Below the pieces are notes generated by a model, which saw only the letters and a list, made by a program, of their open reading frames with translations, ran no database searches and was not told the DNA's origin. Of a stretch of 64,000 bases of DNA, positions 52,289 through 59,977 are shown one piece after another. Source of the stretch: an uncultured Subdoligranulum sp. (lineage in GTDB: Bacteria; Bacillota; Clostridia; Oscillospirales; Ruminococcaceae); assembly GCF_963931595.1 (NCBI RefSeq), contig NZ_OZ007030.1:1294481-1358480 (forward strand), written 5' to 3'. Position 1 is the stretch's first letter, and every line of letters begins with the position of its first letter. Made by a program: the position numbers and the translations under genes.

Positions 52289-52320
52289 GTTGCTAGATCG
52301 ACAAGATGGGAGGGCCGTGT

Positions 52321-52995
52321 ATGTATGCAAAGGTGACAAGCCTCGGTGTCACAGGCTTGGCCGGATACCTGGTCCAGGTGGAGGCGGATCTGTCCGGAGG
52401 GTTACCTCAGTTCAACCTTGTCGGGCTGCCCGATTCCGCTGTCAAGGAGAGCAGCGAGCGAGTGCGCAGTGCTGTCAAGAATCTTCACTATCCCTGGCCG
52501 GCCAGCCGGATCACCATCAACCTGGCCCCCGCCGATGTGCGGAAAACCGGCCCCGTATATGACCTTCCTGTTTTTATCGGCATTCTGGCAGCCCAGGGAA
52601 AGCTGCCCGTTCCCGGTACGGATTGCGCCTTCCTCGGCGAGCTGGGCCTGGACGGCACACTGCGCCCCGTGACCGGCGTTCTGCCCATGGCCCTGGCAGC
52701 CGTCCGGCAGGGCGTCAAAACATTGTTTCTCCCTGCCGAGAACGCCGCAGAGGCCGCCGTGGCAGAAGGGCTCACCGTCTATCCGGCCCGGAACGCTCAG
52801 CAAGTGGTACAGCACCTGTGCGGTGCGGAACCTCTTTCCGCTGCCAAAGCGGATGGATACGACGAAAACGGCGTCTGGCTGGGACCTGATATGGCCGATG
52901 TGCGCGGACAGAGCGAAGCACGCCGTGCGCTGGAGATCGCCGCGGCCGGCGGGCACAATCTGCTGCTGGTGGGGCCTCCGGGTGCAATGTGTTAA
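52321..52995 (+). pseudogene. comM: comM (YifB-type AAA+ protein), 5' fragment disrupted by prophage
   Basis: ComM is an AAA+ helicase promoting branch migration in natural transformation, usually ~500 residues. Here the N-terminal domain is intact (YAKVTSLGVTGLAGYLVQVE, FNLVGLPDSAVKESSERV) and so is the start of the Mg-chelatase AAA+ domain, but the frame runs LLLVGPPGAMC then stop. The expected Walker A GPPGxGKT is cut after GPPG. The ATG at 52321 follows GGGAGGG. The 3' part of comM should be at the far prophage end. Confidence 0.92.
52978..52990. other. Probable attachment-site junction inside comM
   Basis: The host reading frame is normal through CCTCCGGGTG (GPPG of Walker A) and becomes unrelated afterwards (CAATGTGTTAATAG). 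The crossover core therefore lies in or next to these bases. Its exact length cannot be fixed without the other end. Confidence 0.65.
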
Positions 52996-55112: not shown

Positions 55113-55289
55113 TTATCCTGTGATCCCGTACTTTGCCAGGATCGCGCCGCAGGTTTCATCTTTCAGCAGGTTTTTCACCTGGCCGGGAGGCAATGCCCCC
55201 AAAAGCGTCAGCAGGTCGTCCGCCTTCTCCTTGTTGGCTGCCACCTGCTTGTTGTAGGCGATAATTTTATCTCGCAGTTCTTTTTTCAT
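55113..55289 (-). CDS. Small phage protein (58 residues)
   Basis: An ATG at 55289 overlapping the upstream stop (ATGA) opens a 58-codon frame, MKKELRDKIIAYNKQVAANK through AILAKYGITG, ending at 55113. It is helical and charged, with a central ALPPGQVKNLL segment. Function is unknown. The position just before the endolysin resembles the small conserved genes downstream of phage fibre genes. Confidence 0.72.
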   Translation of the reverse strand: MKKELRDKIIAYNKQVAANKEKADDLLTLLGALPPGQVKNLLKDETCGAILAKYGITG

Positions 55290-55660
55290 TCCGTGGCCCC
55301 CGTCAGAATCATGTTCAGCGCTTCGTTCAGCTTTTCCACGTCCACCTTGTCCGCCTTTCCCTGTTCAAGCGCGACCAGCCGTTCGTGGTCCGTCAGCTCT
55401 TCCGGCGATACCGTGGGCCAGTTTTCCCCCACATTCCAGTAGTCGTCCCAGCGCTCCCGGATCGCCTCCTCCGTCAGCGTTTCACCGAAACGTGCATACA
55501 CTTCATCGGCCACCCACTGGGTCACCGTTCCGCCGCTCTCGGTATCGGCCACCGGCTCTTCTTTGATGTTTTTCCGCATCCATACATCAGTTGCCCCGCT
55601 CTCCAGCACATAGAGCATAATTTCAGCGGGTTTTTCTGTGTAGTGTGCCGTCTGTCTCAC
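55286..55660 (-). CDS. Phage hypothetical protein downstream of the RT
   Basis: 124 residues from the GTG at 55660 (AAAGGAG eight bases upstream), overlapping the reverse transcriptase stop (GTGA). It is acidic with many Trp/Glu and a helical end (LVALEQGKADKVDVEKLNEA). Similar proteins occur downstream of phage tail fibres. It is not basic and not a four-helix Avd-like protein, so I do not assign it as the DGR accessory protein. Confidence 0.68.
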   Translation of the reverse strand: MRQTAHYTEKPAEIMLYVLESGATDVWMRKNIKEEPVADTESGGTVTQWVADEVYARFGETLTEEAIRERWDDYWNVGENWPTVSPEELTDHERLVALEQGKADKVDVEKLNEALNMILTGATE

Positions 55661-56855
55661 GCTTTTGTCTCCTTTCTTCTTTGTGCTTCCAGCCTGTCCA
55701 CGCGGCTGATTGACTTTTGCGCGGCGCGGCATATCGCCCGCGCGTCAAGCCGTTTCGTGGCCGTCCTGGTGTTGGTGTGTTTGAAATATCCTTTGTAGCT
55801 GCTGATCTTCCGCGCTCGCCAGTGTGGGATATATCCCAGCGTGCGCAAATTCCTTGCCGCTCTCAAAAATTGACGCCGTATTCTGCGGTAAATCCTTCGG
55901 CGTATCTTTGTGCCTTTATATCCTACCACAAAGCCCATTATGTCGACCGAACCTTGCTTTAGGTCTATCTTCCCCCACCTCTCTTTTATCCTGATTCCCA
56001 GGTTATCCAGCGCCCAGGCTTCCACCATTTTCATGGCCTTTTCCACGTCCGCCTCTCGTGACCCGATCATCACAAAATCGTCCATATAGAACAGCACGTG
56101 GCGCACCAGCTTCTGCCTTTGCACTTCCCCGTTTCTTTTTCTCCTTACCTTCTCCAGGCTCTCTATGTATCGGTACATATACGACAGCGCATAGTTGCAA
56201 AGCCATTGCGAAAGATAGGAGCCTATAGCAAGGCCAGGCGTTACAGTCTCGTGCGTCCGCAGCAGTGCCTGCACAAACCACAGCAGCGTTTCATTTTTGT
56301 GTATGTCTCTTTGCAGCAGCTTTAGGATCGTGGCCGGTTTCAGGCTTGCGTAACACTTCTGTATGTCCCCTTCCTGACATACCGGGCCTTTTTGTCTCTT
56401 CTGATCCACTTCTCCAGGTGCTTCTTTCCGTACTCCTGCCCGCGTCCCACAATGCTTGCGCACTGGAAAACGCCGATCTTGGCGTCGAACAGCTCCCCCA
56501 TGGCACCCACTGCAACGTAGTCCATGCACTGCTGCATTGCCGTCGCCTGGCACAGATCGCGGATTTTTCCGCTTAGTCCGTCCCGCCTCTTAAATGTGCG
56601 CAGCGGGCGCAGCTCCAGGCGTTTCTCCCTGATCCGCCGCGCCACTTCCTCCGCTATGCCTTGTGTGGCTTTCAGCAGTCTGTTATAGTCCTGTGCCGCC
56701 GCATCTTGCAGGACTTGCTCCTTTGTCATTCCTCCGTACAGCTCCAAAAGTTCTACGAAACCATTTTCTTTCCACCTCCTGCTCATGCACTGAAATATAA
56801 ATCCGCCTATCTGTTCGGGATCGGTTATGTCTATCTTTTTGCAATAGGTTTTCAT
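55657..56855 (-). pseudogene. DGR reverse transcriptase, interrupted by a one-base frameshift
   Basis: Copies the template RNA into adenine-mutagenised cDNA for retrohoming into the fibre gene. Two overlapping frames (56855-56340 and 56553-55657) join into one ~398-residue RT if a single G is added to the GGGG run at 56367-56370. The junction then reads KARYVRKGDIQKCYASL, the first catalytic Asp motif. Other motifs: IGSYLSQWLCNYALS (the IGxxxSQ motif typical of DGR RTs, ~215) and VLFYMDDFVMIGS (YMDD catalytic box, ~258). The start follows GGGGAG. It lies directly downstream of the template repeat. As sequenced, translation stops at 56340. Confidence 0.9.
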
Positions 56856-57091: not shown

Positions 57092-57248
57092 CCAAATGCG
57101 CCCGCCAGGCCGTTCCAGTTCGCGTTGCCGCAGGAATTGTTCGCGTTGCCGCAGGACAAGCCACAATTGCCCCCGTTGTTCAAATTGGCCCAGGCCCACC
57201 ACGCATAGACGCGGGAGCCAGCCGCCGGAACATAGACGGCAGCCCGGT
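57092..57248 (-). repeat. DGR template repeat (TR)
   Basis: Non-coding copy of the 3' end of the fibre gene, aligned base for base with 57333-57489 at an offset of 241. Read on the minus strand it has twelve adenine-bearing sense codons, ten of them Asn (AAC/AAT), the classic substrate for adenine mutagenesis, and it ends with a stop-like GGT TGA. Within 57096-57247 every mismatch with the VR falls on a coding-strand adenine of the TR (14 of 23). Confidence 0.96.
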
Positions 57249-57264
57249 GACACGCTGCATACCC

Positions 57265-57289
57265 CATAAAAAGGGGACGCTGTCCCCTC
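57265..57289 (-). terminator. Terminator downstream of the fibre gene
   Basis: Minus strand AGGGGAC-AGC-GTCCCCT followed by TTTTTATGG. It separates the fibre transcript from the template repeat, 10 bases past the fibre stop codon. Confidence 0.78.
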
Positions 57290-57310
57290 TATGCCGGATT
57301 AACCGGCATA
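57290..57310 (-). other. 8-bp inverted repeat just past the VR, across the fibre stop codon
   Basis: TATGCCGG (minus strand, 57310-57303) and CCGGCATA (57297-57290) form a perfect 8-bp stem with loop TTAAT, which contains the TAA stop. A hairpin/cruciform with an 8-bp stem just downstream of the VR is a known DGR target-recognition element in Bordetella phage BPP-1. The equivalence here is inferred. Confidence 0.7.
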
Positions 57311-59977
57311 TTCACCCCTGTTTGACCCGGACCCACAAGCGCCCGCCAGGCCGTGCCAGCTCGCGAAGCCGCAGGAACTGATCGCGTTGCCGCAGGACAA
57401 GCCACAAGCGCCCCCGTAGAACAAACTGGCCCAGGCCCACCACGCATAGACGCGGGAGCCAGCCGCCGGAACAAAGACGGCAGCCCGGCAGCCGGTCGTG
57501 GACCCCGCCGGGCTTCCGGCGGCGACGGCGTACATATTGCCGTCTGCGTCGATCTCCACGTCCTTCTGGTACAGCCAGGCTGCAGCCTGGTTTGTCGGCA
57601 TGGTCAGCACGACATGAGAGCGCACGGCGTTGGAAGTAATGGACGTTGCGATCTGCGCAGCCTGGCGGAAACACACAAGCCGGTGCGTGTAGGCGTCCGC
57701 CGTCAGCACCTGCTCCGTCAGCTGGTCCGCGCTGATCGCATACCCGCCGGGCTGGCACTCCAGCAGCTGGAGTACAAACGGCTCCTTGCCGGACGTGCAG
57801 CTGGTCGGGCTTCCGTCTGCTCCCTTCACGTTGTCACAGCTTCCGCTGTGCCAGGGCATGGTAGAAATATAGGTTTCACCGGCCACCGTGTTGAACGCGG
57901 CGGGCGCGTCCAGGTTCAAAGCCTTGTAGCTCGTTCCGTTCACCTGCACGTCCTCAATGCTCAAAATACGCACCTTGTCGGCCAGCGCACGCATGGAGGC
58001 CACGCCGCGATCCGTAGACGTTCCCGTGCCCTTGTCTCCCACGGACACGGTGCTGCCCACCAAATACCCGGACGCATCCGACGCCGTCAGCAGCACCCGC
58101 TTTACGCCGCTTTCGGAAACCTTTGCAATTTTCTGGTAGTTGTAATTGCTGCATCCCTCCAGAGTGCCGGAGTTCCCCTTTTTGCCGTACTTCATCCAGA
58201 ACATTCTCATGCGGAAAGAAAGATCACACCCGCAAATTCCGCAGTAGTCTGCGCCGCGTTTGCGCCACTCCGTTGCCTGGCTCTGCATGCTGATGAAGTT
58301 TACGGCGGCCAGGCCAGACGCGCTGGTCAGCTTCCCGTCCGCTCCACGTCCGGCCATGTACTTTGCGTGTACCACATAGGGCCGGACGCTGCCATCCAGT
58401 GCCACGCCTTCCGGCAGCGGTCTGTAGGCGTTTGCATCCGTCACAAAGTTGGCGGGTGCGGCGCGGTAGTAGTGGTAGTAGTAGCTGTCGTCCTCGGTAT
58501 CGGCATACCACCCGGTTTTCTGCGCCACGCCTACCATGCCATACTGGCCGGACAGCAGAGCTGCGCGGGTTACGCCGTTTACCCCTGCCACAGCCTTGAT
58601 TGCCACCTCTTTGTCCTCGATCTCGTAGGCCACCTCAACAGCCCAGAACGCGCCGTGCTCAAAGTAGGGGTCCTGCGCCTCTGTCGTGTTGGTTCCAGGC
58701 GTCGCCGCGCCCAGTTCGGCAGAGGACTGGATCAGTTCGCCGTCCGACGTAGCGCTGGTGTCGAACTTATAGAACTTTACGCCGTAGGTATTGTCATCCC
58801 ACAGCAGGGTGAACCAGCGGCGCAAAATGTTACCCACGGCAACCCCCTGGGCTGCCAGGGCGGCGGCATACTGCTGGAAAATCTCGCTTGTGTTCTCTCC
58901 ATTCAGCCGTGCCGCCCAAATGGAGTCCACGGCTCCGTCTGTTGTCCATCCCTCCACCGCCTTTGCAATCTCTTCCGCTTTCTCTCTTTCCTGGCTTGCC
59001 AGCTGTGCCTGTTTTTCTGCTTCCTGCTGGTTTCCTTCCGCGTTTTCCTGGGCTGTTTCCGCTGCCGCTTTCGCGGCCTCTGCGGCAGCTTTCGCGGCCT
59101 CTGCGGCGGTCTTTTCCTGCCCCGCCTGGTTCTTTGCCGCTTCGGCTGCGTCAGCCTCTGTCGCGGCGTTTTGGGCCTCCTGGGCGGCCTGGTTTTTCAG
59201 CTCCTGGCACTGCGCCAGCGTCTGCTCCAGCTGCTCCTGGTTCTCCAGCGCATCCTCCGCCCGCTTTGCTGCATTGTTTGCCGCCTCCGTTGCGGCTTCC
59301 GTTTCCCTGATCGCGGCCTGTGTGTCAGTCTGCCTCTTTGTCTCCGCTGCGGCTCTGGCGCTCTCTGCCTTTGCTCTGGCGCTCTCTGCTGACTTTCTGG
59401 AGCTTTCCGCCGCTGCCCTGGAGTTTTCGGCTGCTGCTCTGGCGCTCTCTGCCTCTTCCCGGGCTGTCTCTGCCTTCGCGCGGGCTTTCTCCGCCTCCAC
59501 GCGCATTCTTTCGACGGTTGCCCATTCCTCCATGTCCGCATTGATCTGCGCCCACTTTTCGTCGAACGCCGTCATTTCGTTGGAGGACAAGATCGCGCTT
59601 TCGTCCCGGTTGTTCTTTCCCACCTTGATCGTGAAAGCGCAAGAGGTCAAAATCTGGCTGCTGTCTTTCGCTCTGATCTCTACCTCGCAGGTCACTTCCC
59701 CGGGCACCGCAAGTACCTGGTTTGTCAGCTCAACCAAAATGCGGTTGCCTTCGTCGATCTTCGCGGCGTTGAAAGCAAATTTCCCGTCCGGCTTTGTGAA
59801 GTTTGCGATCAGGTCCGCATCCTCTGGCGGCTCATACTCTTTCCCATCGTCCACGATCAGCACCGAAACAAAACGGGTCGCTTTATCCCCCTGTTTTGCT
59901 TGCACCAGGTAGTCCTTTGTTTCTGCGGACGCGTCAATGTCGATCCGTGTAATCAGCACGGGCAATTTGTTTGCCAT
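57299..59977 (-). CDS. Phage fibre/baseplate protein, DGR-diversified receptor-binding candidate
   Basis: 892 residues. N-terminal ~130 residues (ITRIDIDASAETKDYLVQAK, FVSVLIVDDGKEYEPPEDAD) resemble BppU-like baseplate upper proteins. A long Ala/Glu coiled coil (~150-345) follows. Then comes a large folded C-terminal region with repeated Cys and aromatic residues (YCGICGCDLSFRMRMFW) that ends in the variable segment, where RVYAWWAWA precedes the diversified positions. It closes with GSGSNRGEYAG. It is probably the host-binding tip whose last ~50 residues vary. A C-type-lectin-like fold is usual for DGR targets but was not verified. Confidence 0.9.
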   Translation of the reverse strand: MANKLPVLITRIDIDASAETKDYLVQAKQGDKATRFVSVLIVDDGKEYEPPEDADLIANFTKPDGKFAFNAAKIDEGNRILVELTNQVLAVPGEVTCEVEIRAKDSSQILTSCAFTIKVGKNNRDESAILSSNEMTAFDEKWAQINADMEEWATVERMRVEAEKARAKAETAREEAESARAAAENSRAAAESSRKSAESARAKAESARAAAETKRQTDTQAAIRETEAATEAANNAAKRAEDALENQEQLEQTLAQCQELKNQAAQEAQNAATEADAAEAAKNQAGQEKTAAEAAKAAAEAAKAAAETAQENAEGNQQEAEKQAQLASQEREKAEEIAKAVEGWTTDGAVDSIWAARLNGENTSEIFQQYAAALAAQGVAVGNILRRWFTLLWDDNTYGVKFYKFDTSATSDGELIQSSAELGAATPGTNTTEAQDPYFEHGAFWAVEVAYEIEDKEVAIKAVAGVNGVTRAALLSGQYGMVGVAQKTGWYADTEDDSYYYHYYRAAPANFVTDANAYRPLPEGVALDGSVRPYVVHAKYMAGRGADGKLTSASGLAAVNFISMQSQATEWRKRGADYCGICGCDLSFRMRMFWMKYGKKGNSGTLEGCSNYNYQKIAKVSESGVKRVLLTASDASGYLVGSTVSVGDKGTGTSTDRGVASMRALADKVRILSIEDVQVNGTSYKALNLDAPAAFNTVAGETYISTMPWHSGSCDNVKGADGSPTSCTSGKEPFVLQLLECQPGGYAISADQLTEQVLTADAYTHRLVCFRQAAQIATSITSNAVRSHVVLTMPTNQAAAWLYQKDVEIDADGNMYAVAAGSPAGSTTGCRAAVFVPAAGSRVYAWWAWASLFYGGACGLSCGNAISSCGFASWHGLAGACGSGSNRGEYAG
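57333..57489 (-). repeat. DGR variable repeat (VR) in the fibre gene
   Basis: 3' end of the fibre coding sequence. Compared with the TR the codon changes are Tyr to Phe, Asn to Ser (three), Asn to Phe (two), and Asn to Tyr, Ala, Ile and His, plus one silent GCA to GCT. One Asn is unchanged. The coding 3' edge contains GGCCTGGCGGGCGC (57352-57339), a GC-rich block like the initiation-of-mutagenic-homing (IMH) sequence of known DGRs. Confidence 0.96.

Follow-up and report, generated by a model that had tools for sequence, protein, structure and literature searches.

A prophage diversity-generating retroelement with a split reverse transcriptase and a conserved element beside its variable repeat

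Diversity-generating retroelements (DGRs) are natural targeted-mutation engines, and one of phage type was found in a prophage in the window, the whole 64,000 nt stretch of DNA that was analysed. It is best read, with a probability of about 0.77, as a phage DGR from a lineage with no recognisable Avd, recently active, with its reverse transcriptase (RT) now split and the cassette probably silent. Activity is taken to be recent because there is no non-adenine drift between the template repeat (TR) and the variable repeat (VR), and we infer that the cassette is now probably silent because the RT is split just before the motif-A aspartate. The DGR class itself is already known; the new part is the element on the VR side, a short box followed by two hairpins, which is conserved in relatives. 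The features are listed in Table 1.

Table 1. Features of the cassette, with positions in the window
Feature	Position	Strand	Basis or remark
Target gene, 892-aa tail/baseplate protein	57299..59977	-	ORF; PF10651 E 9.9e-11; phrog_17147 E 8.9e-94
Variable repeat (VR)	57333..57489	-	Last part of target gene; gapless match to TR with changes at adenines only
AGGGGTGAAT box, VR side only	57310..57319	-	In 63/74 nonidentical target 3' regions vs 1.45 expected by shuffling
Hairpin 1, 8-bp stem, 5-nt loop TTAAT, overlaps target stop codon	57290..57310	-	DNA fold z -3.42 (whole element)
Hairpin 2, 7-bp stem, 3-nt loop, GAGGGG/CCCC type, followed here by T5	57272..57288	-	Layout kept in relatives
Template repeat (TR)	57092..57248	-	Between target gene and RT; ungapped match to VR
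RT, N-terminal piece, 171 aa, no catalytic residues	56340..56855	-	Start-codon frame; phrog_1423 E 2.4e-12
RT frame-break site, run of four G, just before motif-A Asp	56367..56370	-	ORF frames
RT, C-terminal piece, other frame, with GDIQKCY (motif A), AIGSYLSQ and YMDD	55657..56385	-	RVT_1 over cut-off; phrog_1423 E 1.1e-39
Small ORF, 148 aa, overlaps RT end	55286..55732	-	Homologues after RT in part of clade

The repeat pair and the target gene

Re-alignment of the TR and VR gave a gapless match at a constant offset of 241, as first described. In the core (57096–57247) there were 14 differences, exactly at the positions originally listed and all on the 23 coding-strand (minus-strand) adenines of the TR, and none of the 129 other bases was mismatched. 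For 14 positions drawn at random, the hypergeometric probability that all fall on TR adenines is 3.8e-14. The TR to VR spectrum consisted of eight A to T, four A to G and two A to C changes. One of these bases, 57097, is A in the TR and C in the VR in nearly all relatives and, on this alignment, is probably a fixed IMH/IMH* boundary difference that leaves 13 mutagenised adenines. The positions behind the original tally of 14 adenines were therefore correct, and 13 of 22 is the safer count because 57097 lies at the IMH/IMH* junction. The core was also as clean as had been claimed, with a non-adenine difference just beyond it at 57095, inside the outer range that had been given. The codon counts of the original prediction fared unevenly: it had found 12 adenine-bearing sense codons in the TR, which the recount raised to 13 (ten Asn, two Tyr and one Ala, GCA), and had correctly found nine of the ten Asn codons changed. 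The codons altered in the VR are these nine and one Tyr codon. An IMH/IMH* is present at the 3' end of the VR and TR as a GC-rich tract common to both, where homology stops at the same point as in the relatives. A search of the element's own genome detected no third copy of the repeat.

The target gene encodes a protein with an N-terminal BppU_N domain, an Ala-rich linker and a C-terminal variable domain (residues 344–892), and the VR corresponds to about the last 60 residues. Residues 344–892 were modelled with a mean pLDDT of 90.7 (AlphaFold2, 43 sequences), and the best solved fold for the C-terminal domain was TaqVP, the Thermus aquaticus DGR variable protein (5vf4; PMC6328139), with a Foldseek E of 2.6e-6 and a Z of 20.6 over 290 residues. 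PvdO (Z 9.8) came next, then Mtd (Z 8.1–8.5), whose band unrelated folds reach too. The variable domain is thus predicted to have a TaqVP-like CLec fold, with the VR at the extreme C terminus as in TaqVP, whereas identity to TaqVP is 12% and a BppU_N tail-anchor domain and linker precede the variable domain only in the window's protein. Judging from the predicted fold and from BPP-1, the CLec-type domain likely binds a host receptor or surface ligand.

The reverse transcriptase and its frame break

The cassette had been called a complete phage DGR, and this could not be upheld. The RT consists of two ORFs in different frames, split just before the first catalytic aspartate, and no intact translatable RT gene is present in this prophage copy. 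The IGxxxSQ and YMDD motifs reported earlier are there (the former as AIGSYLSQ), but both are out of the start-codon frame, which stops a few codons past the break at the G4 run. The split counts against a working DGR and leaves a DGR by descent standing. The RTs of the seven closest relatives, L005/L015 among them, are intact (404–455 aa), as are nearly all of those in about 80 further viral relatives. A possible exception is L129, in which the RT match covers 1.1 kb (15–1103) and the best open frame is short; this DGR RT may be broken too.

Past adenine-specific mutagenic retrohoming is nevertheless well supported, by the A-only differences, the DGR-type RT motifs, the predicted TaqVP-like CLec target, the IMH/IMH* and the VR-side hairpins. 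An ordinary duplication that diverged through general mutation or recombination would explain the existence of a repeat, and nothing else speaks for it; the A-only difference spectrum (p 3.8e-14) rules it out, and dozens of relatives whose RT is of the DGR type show the same pattern, so the chance of this explanation is negligible. A sequencing or assembly error in the RT, with the DGR intact and able to work, would fit a break within a short G run, a second apparent shift in the prophage at a G7 run and a TR and VR that show no decay. Neither reads nor a second isolate of the prophage were found, and the frame break thus rests on one assembly. However, when 172.8 kb were compared with a same-species genome (G026), 18 indels were seen, 15 of them non-triplet. 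Judged from the surrounding ORFs, none of the indels clearly disrupts a gene of the prophage-bearing genome, which makes an assembly error improbable; a G4 run is also not especially error-prone. Alternatively, ribosomes may shift by -1 on GGGG, or the two fragments may complement each other, so that RT is still made and the DGR has weak activity. Slippage of a single tRNA on the G run would bring the ribosome into the downstream frame, and a GTG at 56553 could serve as a start for the downstream ORF. Against this, the sequence contains no canonical slippery heptamer and the RTs of the relatives are encoded in one frame and need no shift; a programmed shift is therefore unlikely, and we give production from the split gene very little credence.

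Under the preferred reading of a once active and now probably silent DGR, an active RT would have copied TR RNA into cDNA, misincorporating opposite adenines, and the mutated cDNA would have replaced the VR at the 3' end of the baseplate/tail protein gene, altering ten codons of the CLec-type domain, nine for Asn and one for Tyr. Homing would probably have proceeded via the VR-side box and hairpins. A frameshift would then have split the RT in this prophage copy and probably silenced the cassette. A textbook TR/VR signature does not prove a working cassette and the RT frame needs checking, so surveys that tally TR/VR pairs may overcount live elements.

The box and hairpins on the VR side

The box, GGGGTGA(AT), is mostly accompanied by two hairpins after the VR, and the usual order of the element is GGGGTGAAT, a variable hairpin and GAGGGG-loop-CCCC. 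GGGGTGA followed the VR in most of the nonidentical target 3' regions, against a shuffling expectation below two (Table 1), and was found in none of the TR-side stretches. A protein-level cause of the box was rejected, as the stop codon precedes the box in many relatives. The hairpin/cruciform downstream of the VR takes the form of two hairpins that covary in relatives, the first of them strongly. For hairpin 1, the arms formed 5.55 of 6 pairs, compared with 3.45 +/- 0.09 when arms were permuted among loci (86 distinct segments, 69 distinct left arms), a permutation that ignores relatedness. The hairpin-1 loops had the form G-N(1-2)-A in 45 of 84 relatives, where about 11% would be expected, and recall the GRNA hairpin loops reported in phage DGRs (PMC3240598); the hairpin-2 loops had no such bias. 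The hairpin-1 loop in the window, TTAAT, departs from this pattern.

IMG/VR was also scanned for the pattern of the element blind to the RT. Among at least 42 matches with enough flank, within the matches listed, the family RT was downstream in 36, the target was present in 35 and an A-biased repeat pair in 30. Four of the matches listed were a look-alike element that is also present in Rhodobacterales plasmids, so the same layout can occur without a DGR. The look-alike consists of CTCCGGGGTGAAT, a hairpin with a GNA loop and GAGGGGCAGCGCCCC, and is mostly extragenic and outside DGRs (L141, L149, L154, L179 and the Rhodobacterales plasmids). It may have a shared role with the DGR element or may have arisen by convergence. 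No known RNA family reached its gathering score at the element in ten related loci, and the window gave no credible match either. Among the open-access papers searched, none was found to describe an element made of a box and two hairpins.

The box with two hairpins has the look of an elaborated element for target recognition. A structure that terminates transcription or forms the 3' end of the mRNA, and is no homing signal for the DGR, would fit the T5 that follows hairpin 2 in the window and the occurrence of the look-alike outside DGRs, in Rhodobacterales plasmids and the four scanned viral contigs. However, the T run is absent from most relatives, the element lies between the VR and TR and never after the TR, the family RT accompanies 36 of the 42 testable matches among those listed in the RT-blind scan, and BPP-1 homing needs a hairpin at the equivalent place (PMC3240598). 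We consider a terminator unlikely. A more specific form of the target-recognition reading, in which the GGGGTGAAT box and tandem hairpins would be a recognition module read directly by the complex of RT and TR RNA, such that a lineage with no recognised Avd retrohomes without the accessory protein on which BPP-1 depends, is put forward as a tentative possibility that we favour less than its opposite. The VR-side element of the relatives can be cut and swapped experimentally, and two questions are testable through them: which features a DGR target site requires, and whether and by what Avd is replaced.

Relatives, known systems and the prophage setting

Neither the window RT nor the target matched any viral or genome contig when used as a single-sequence query; only an alignment query succeeded. 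The RT alignment query returned 196 relatives from IMG/VR, of which 80 were kept. The order target-TR-RT was found in most of the kept relatives that extend far enough, and A-only TR/VR pairs in dozens. In the RT tree, the window grouped with L015 (99/94), and the family grouped with Brt of BPP-1 and apart from group II intron RTs, on long branches that make this placement indicative only. In the PDB, the L005 RT matched only one sequence, the 328-aa reverse transcriptase of 8ub7.

The bAvd profile (PF22296) had no match in 38 related records and genomes, the whole of this genome included, while the BPP-1 control was found (E 2.2e-37); such a profile search would miss divergent substitutes. 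PF05635, a weaker test for Avd that misses BPP-1's own, gave one sub-threshold match among 35 records and nothing in this genome; in the same-genus genome G015 it had one true match, outside the DGR contig. The small ORF after the RT was rejected as an Avd equivalent; by similarity it is present in only part of the clade. The relatives thus define a lineage with no detectable bAvd, in which A-only repeats show past homing. Further genes were seen near the DGRs of single relatives. In L016 (7513–9260), the DGR RT is followed downstream by a small helical Avd-like ORF and then by a second RT (352 aa), and in the gut phage contig L011 (4667–5176) the DGR target and RT are separated by an ORF resembling RNase HI. 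Here there is neither an RNase H nor such a pairing of an Avd-like ORF with a second RT. Motif 4 is IGALPSES in the RTs of L016 and L017 and IGSYLSCN, together with YMDN, in those of L013 and L133; their TR/VR differences are still A-only, and the active sites of these four are thus unusual and yet bear signs of earlier activity.

Among the closest systems is the prophage cassette of a genome of the same genus (G015; L005/L015), with a target 49% identical and an RT 43–44% identical (44% for L005/L015). It shares the gene order of the window, including the small ORF, A-only TR/VR differences (13/13) and the box with two hairpins. Its RT, unlike that of the window, is intact (409 aa), the N-terminal part of its target differs, and the other structural genes of the phage had no similarity at the level searched. 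The DGR of the Bordetella phage BPP-1 (mtd-avd-TR-brt) likewise has the order target-TR-RT, A-only TR/VR differences, a VR that ends a tail-protein gene with a CLec fold (predicted here), an RT with IGSxxSQ and YMDD, and a hairpin just after the VR. BPP-1 has Avd and an intact RT, whereas here there is no bAvd match and the RT is split. BPP-1 also lacks the GGGGTGA box and has one hairpin, closed by a GAAA loop, and the single 7–10 bp hairpin with a 4-nt GRNA loop that follows the VR in DGRs of this type (PMC3240598) is replaced here by two hairpins with loops of TTAAT and 3 nt.

DGRs of Faecalibacterium and other gut prophages (PMC11792537) are similarly prophage-borne, in gut bacteria and with tail-type targets, and the absence of read variation in some was ascribed to temporary inactivation. 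That report makes no mention of a frameshifted RT, and its targets have DUF6273, Ig or Mtd-like domains. Nanoarchaeal DUSEL4 DGRs (PMC4372165) have, within the target gene, hairpins whose loops are GRA trinucleotides, and their IMH has a TGGGGT motif, a likeness by description alone; there a single hairpin is described and the hosts are different. The box was absent from the distant DGRs used for contrast, those of Butyrivibrio phage Arawn, ANMV-1, cr55_1 and Versailles. In Arawn (L269), two hairpins stand in tandem at the target stop (~5199) without a GGGGTGA box, and tandem hairpins may therefore reach beyond the clade.

The window sits in a single-contig 2.99-Mb genome. With G026, which lacks the insertion, as the reference for its boundaries, the prophage is ~38.5 kb long and lies inside comM, starting at window position 52983 and ending ~27.5 kb past the window. 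A megablast search of the prophage part against phages gave no match. On the minus strand, tail genes are followed by the 892-aa target (BppU_N), the TR, the RT, the small ORF, an endolysin and a holin. In the prophage gene for an MT-A70-like adenine methyltransferase (G000:C1 ~1373410–1373969, beyond the window), the reading frame changes at the G7 run, which could be decay, phase variation or a local error. The comM (YifB) gene (52306–52995 in the window) is interrupted by the prophage near the Walker A motif, and the remainder of comM resumes ~38.5 kb on, beside a large recombinase-like ORF.
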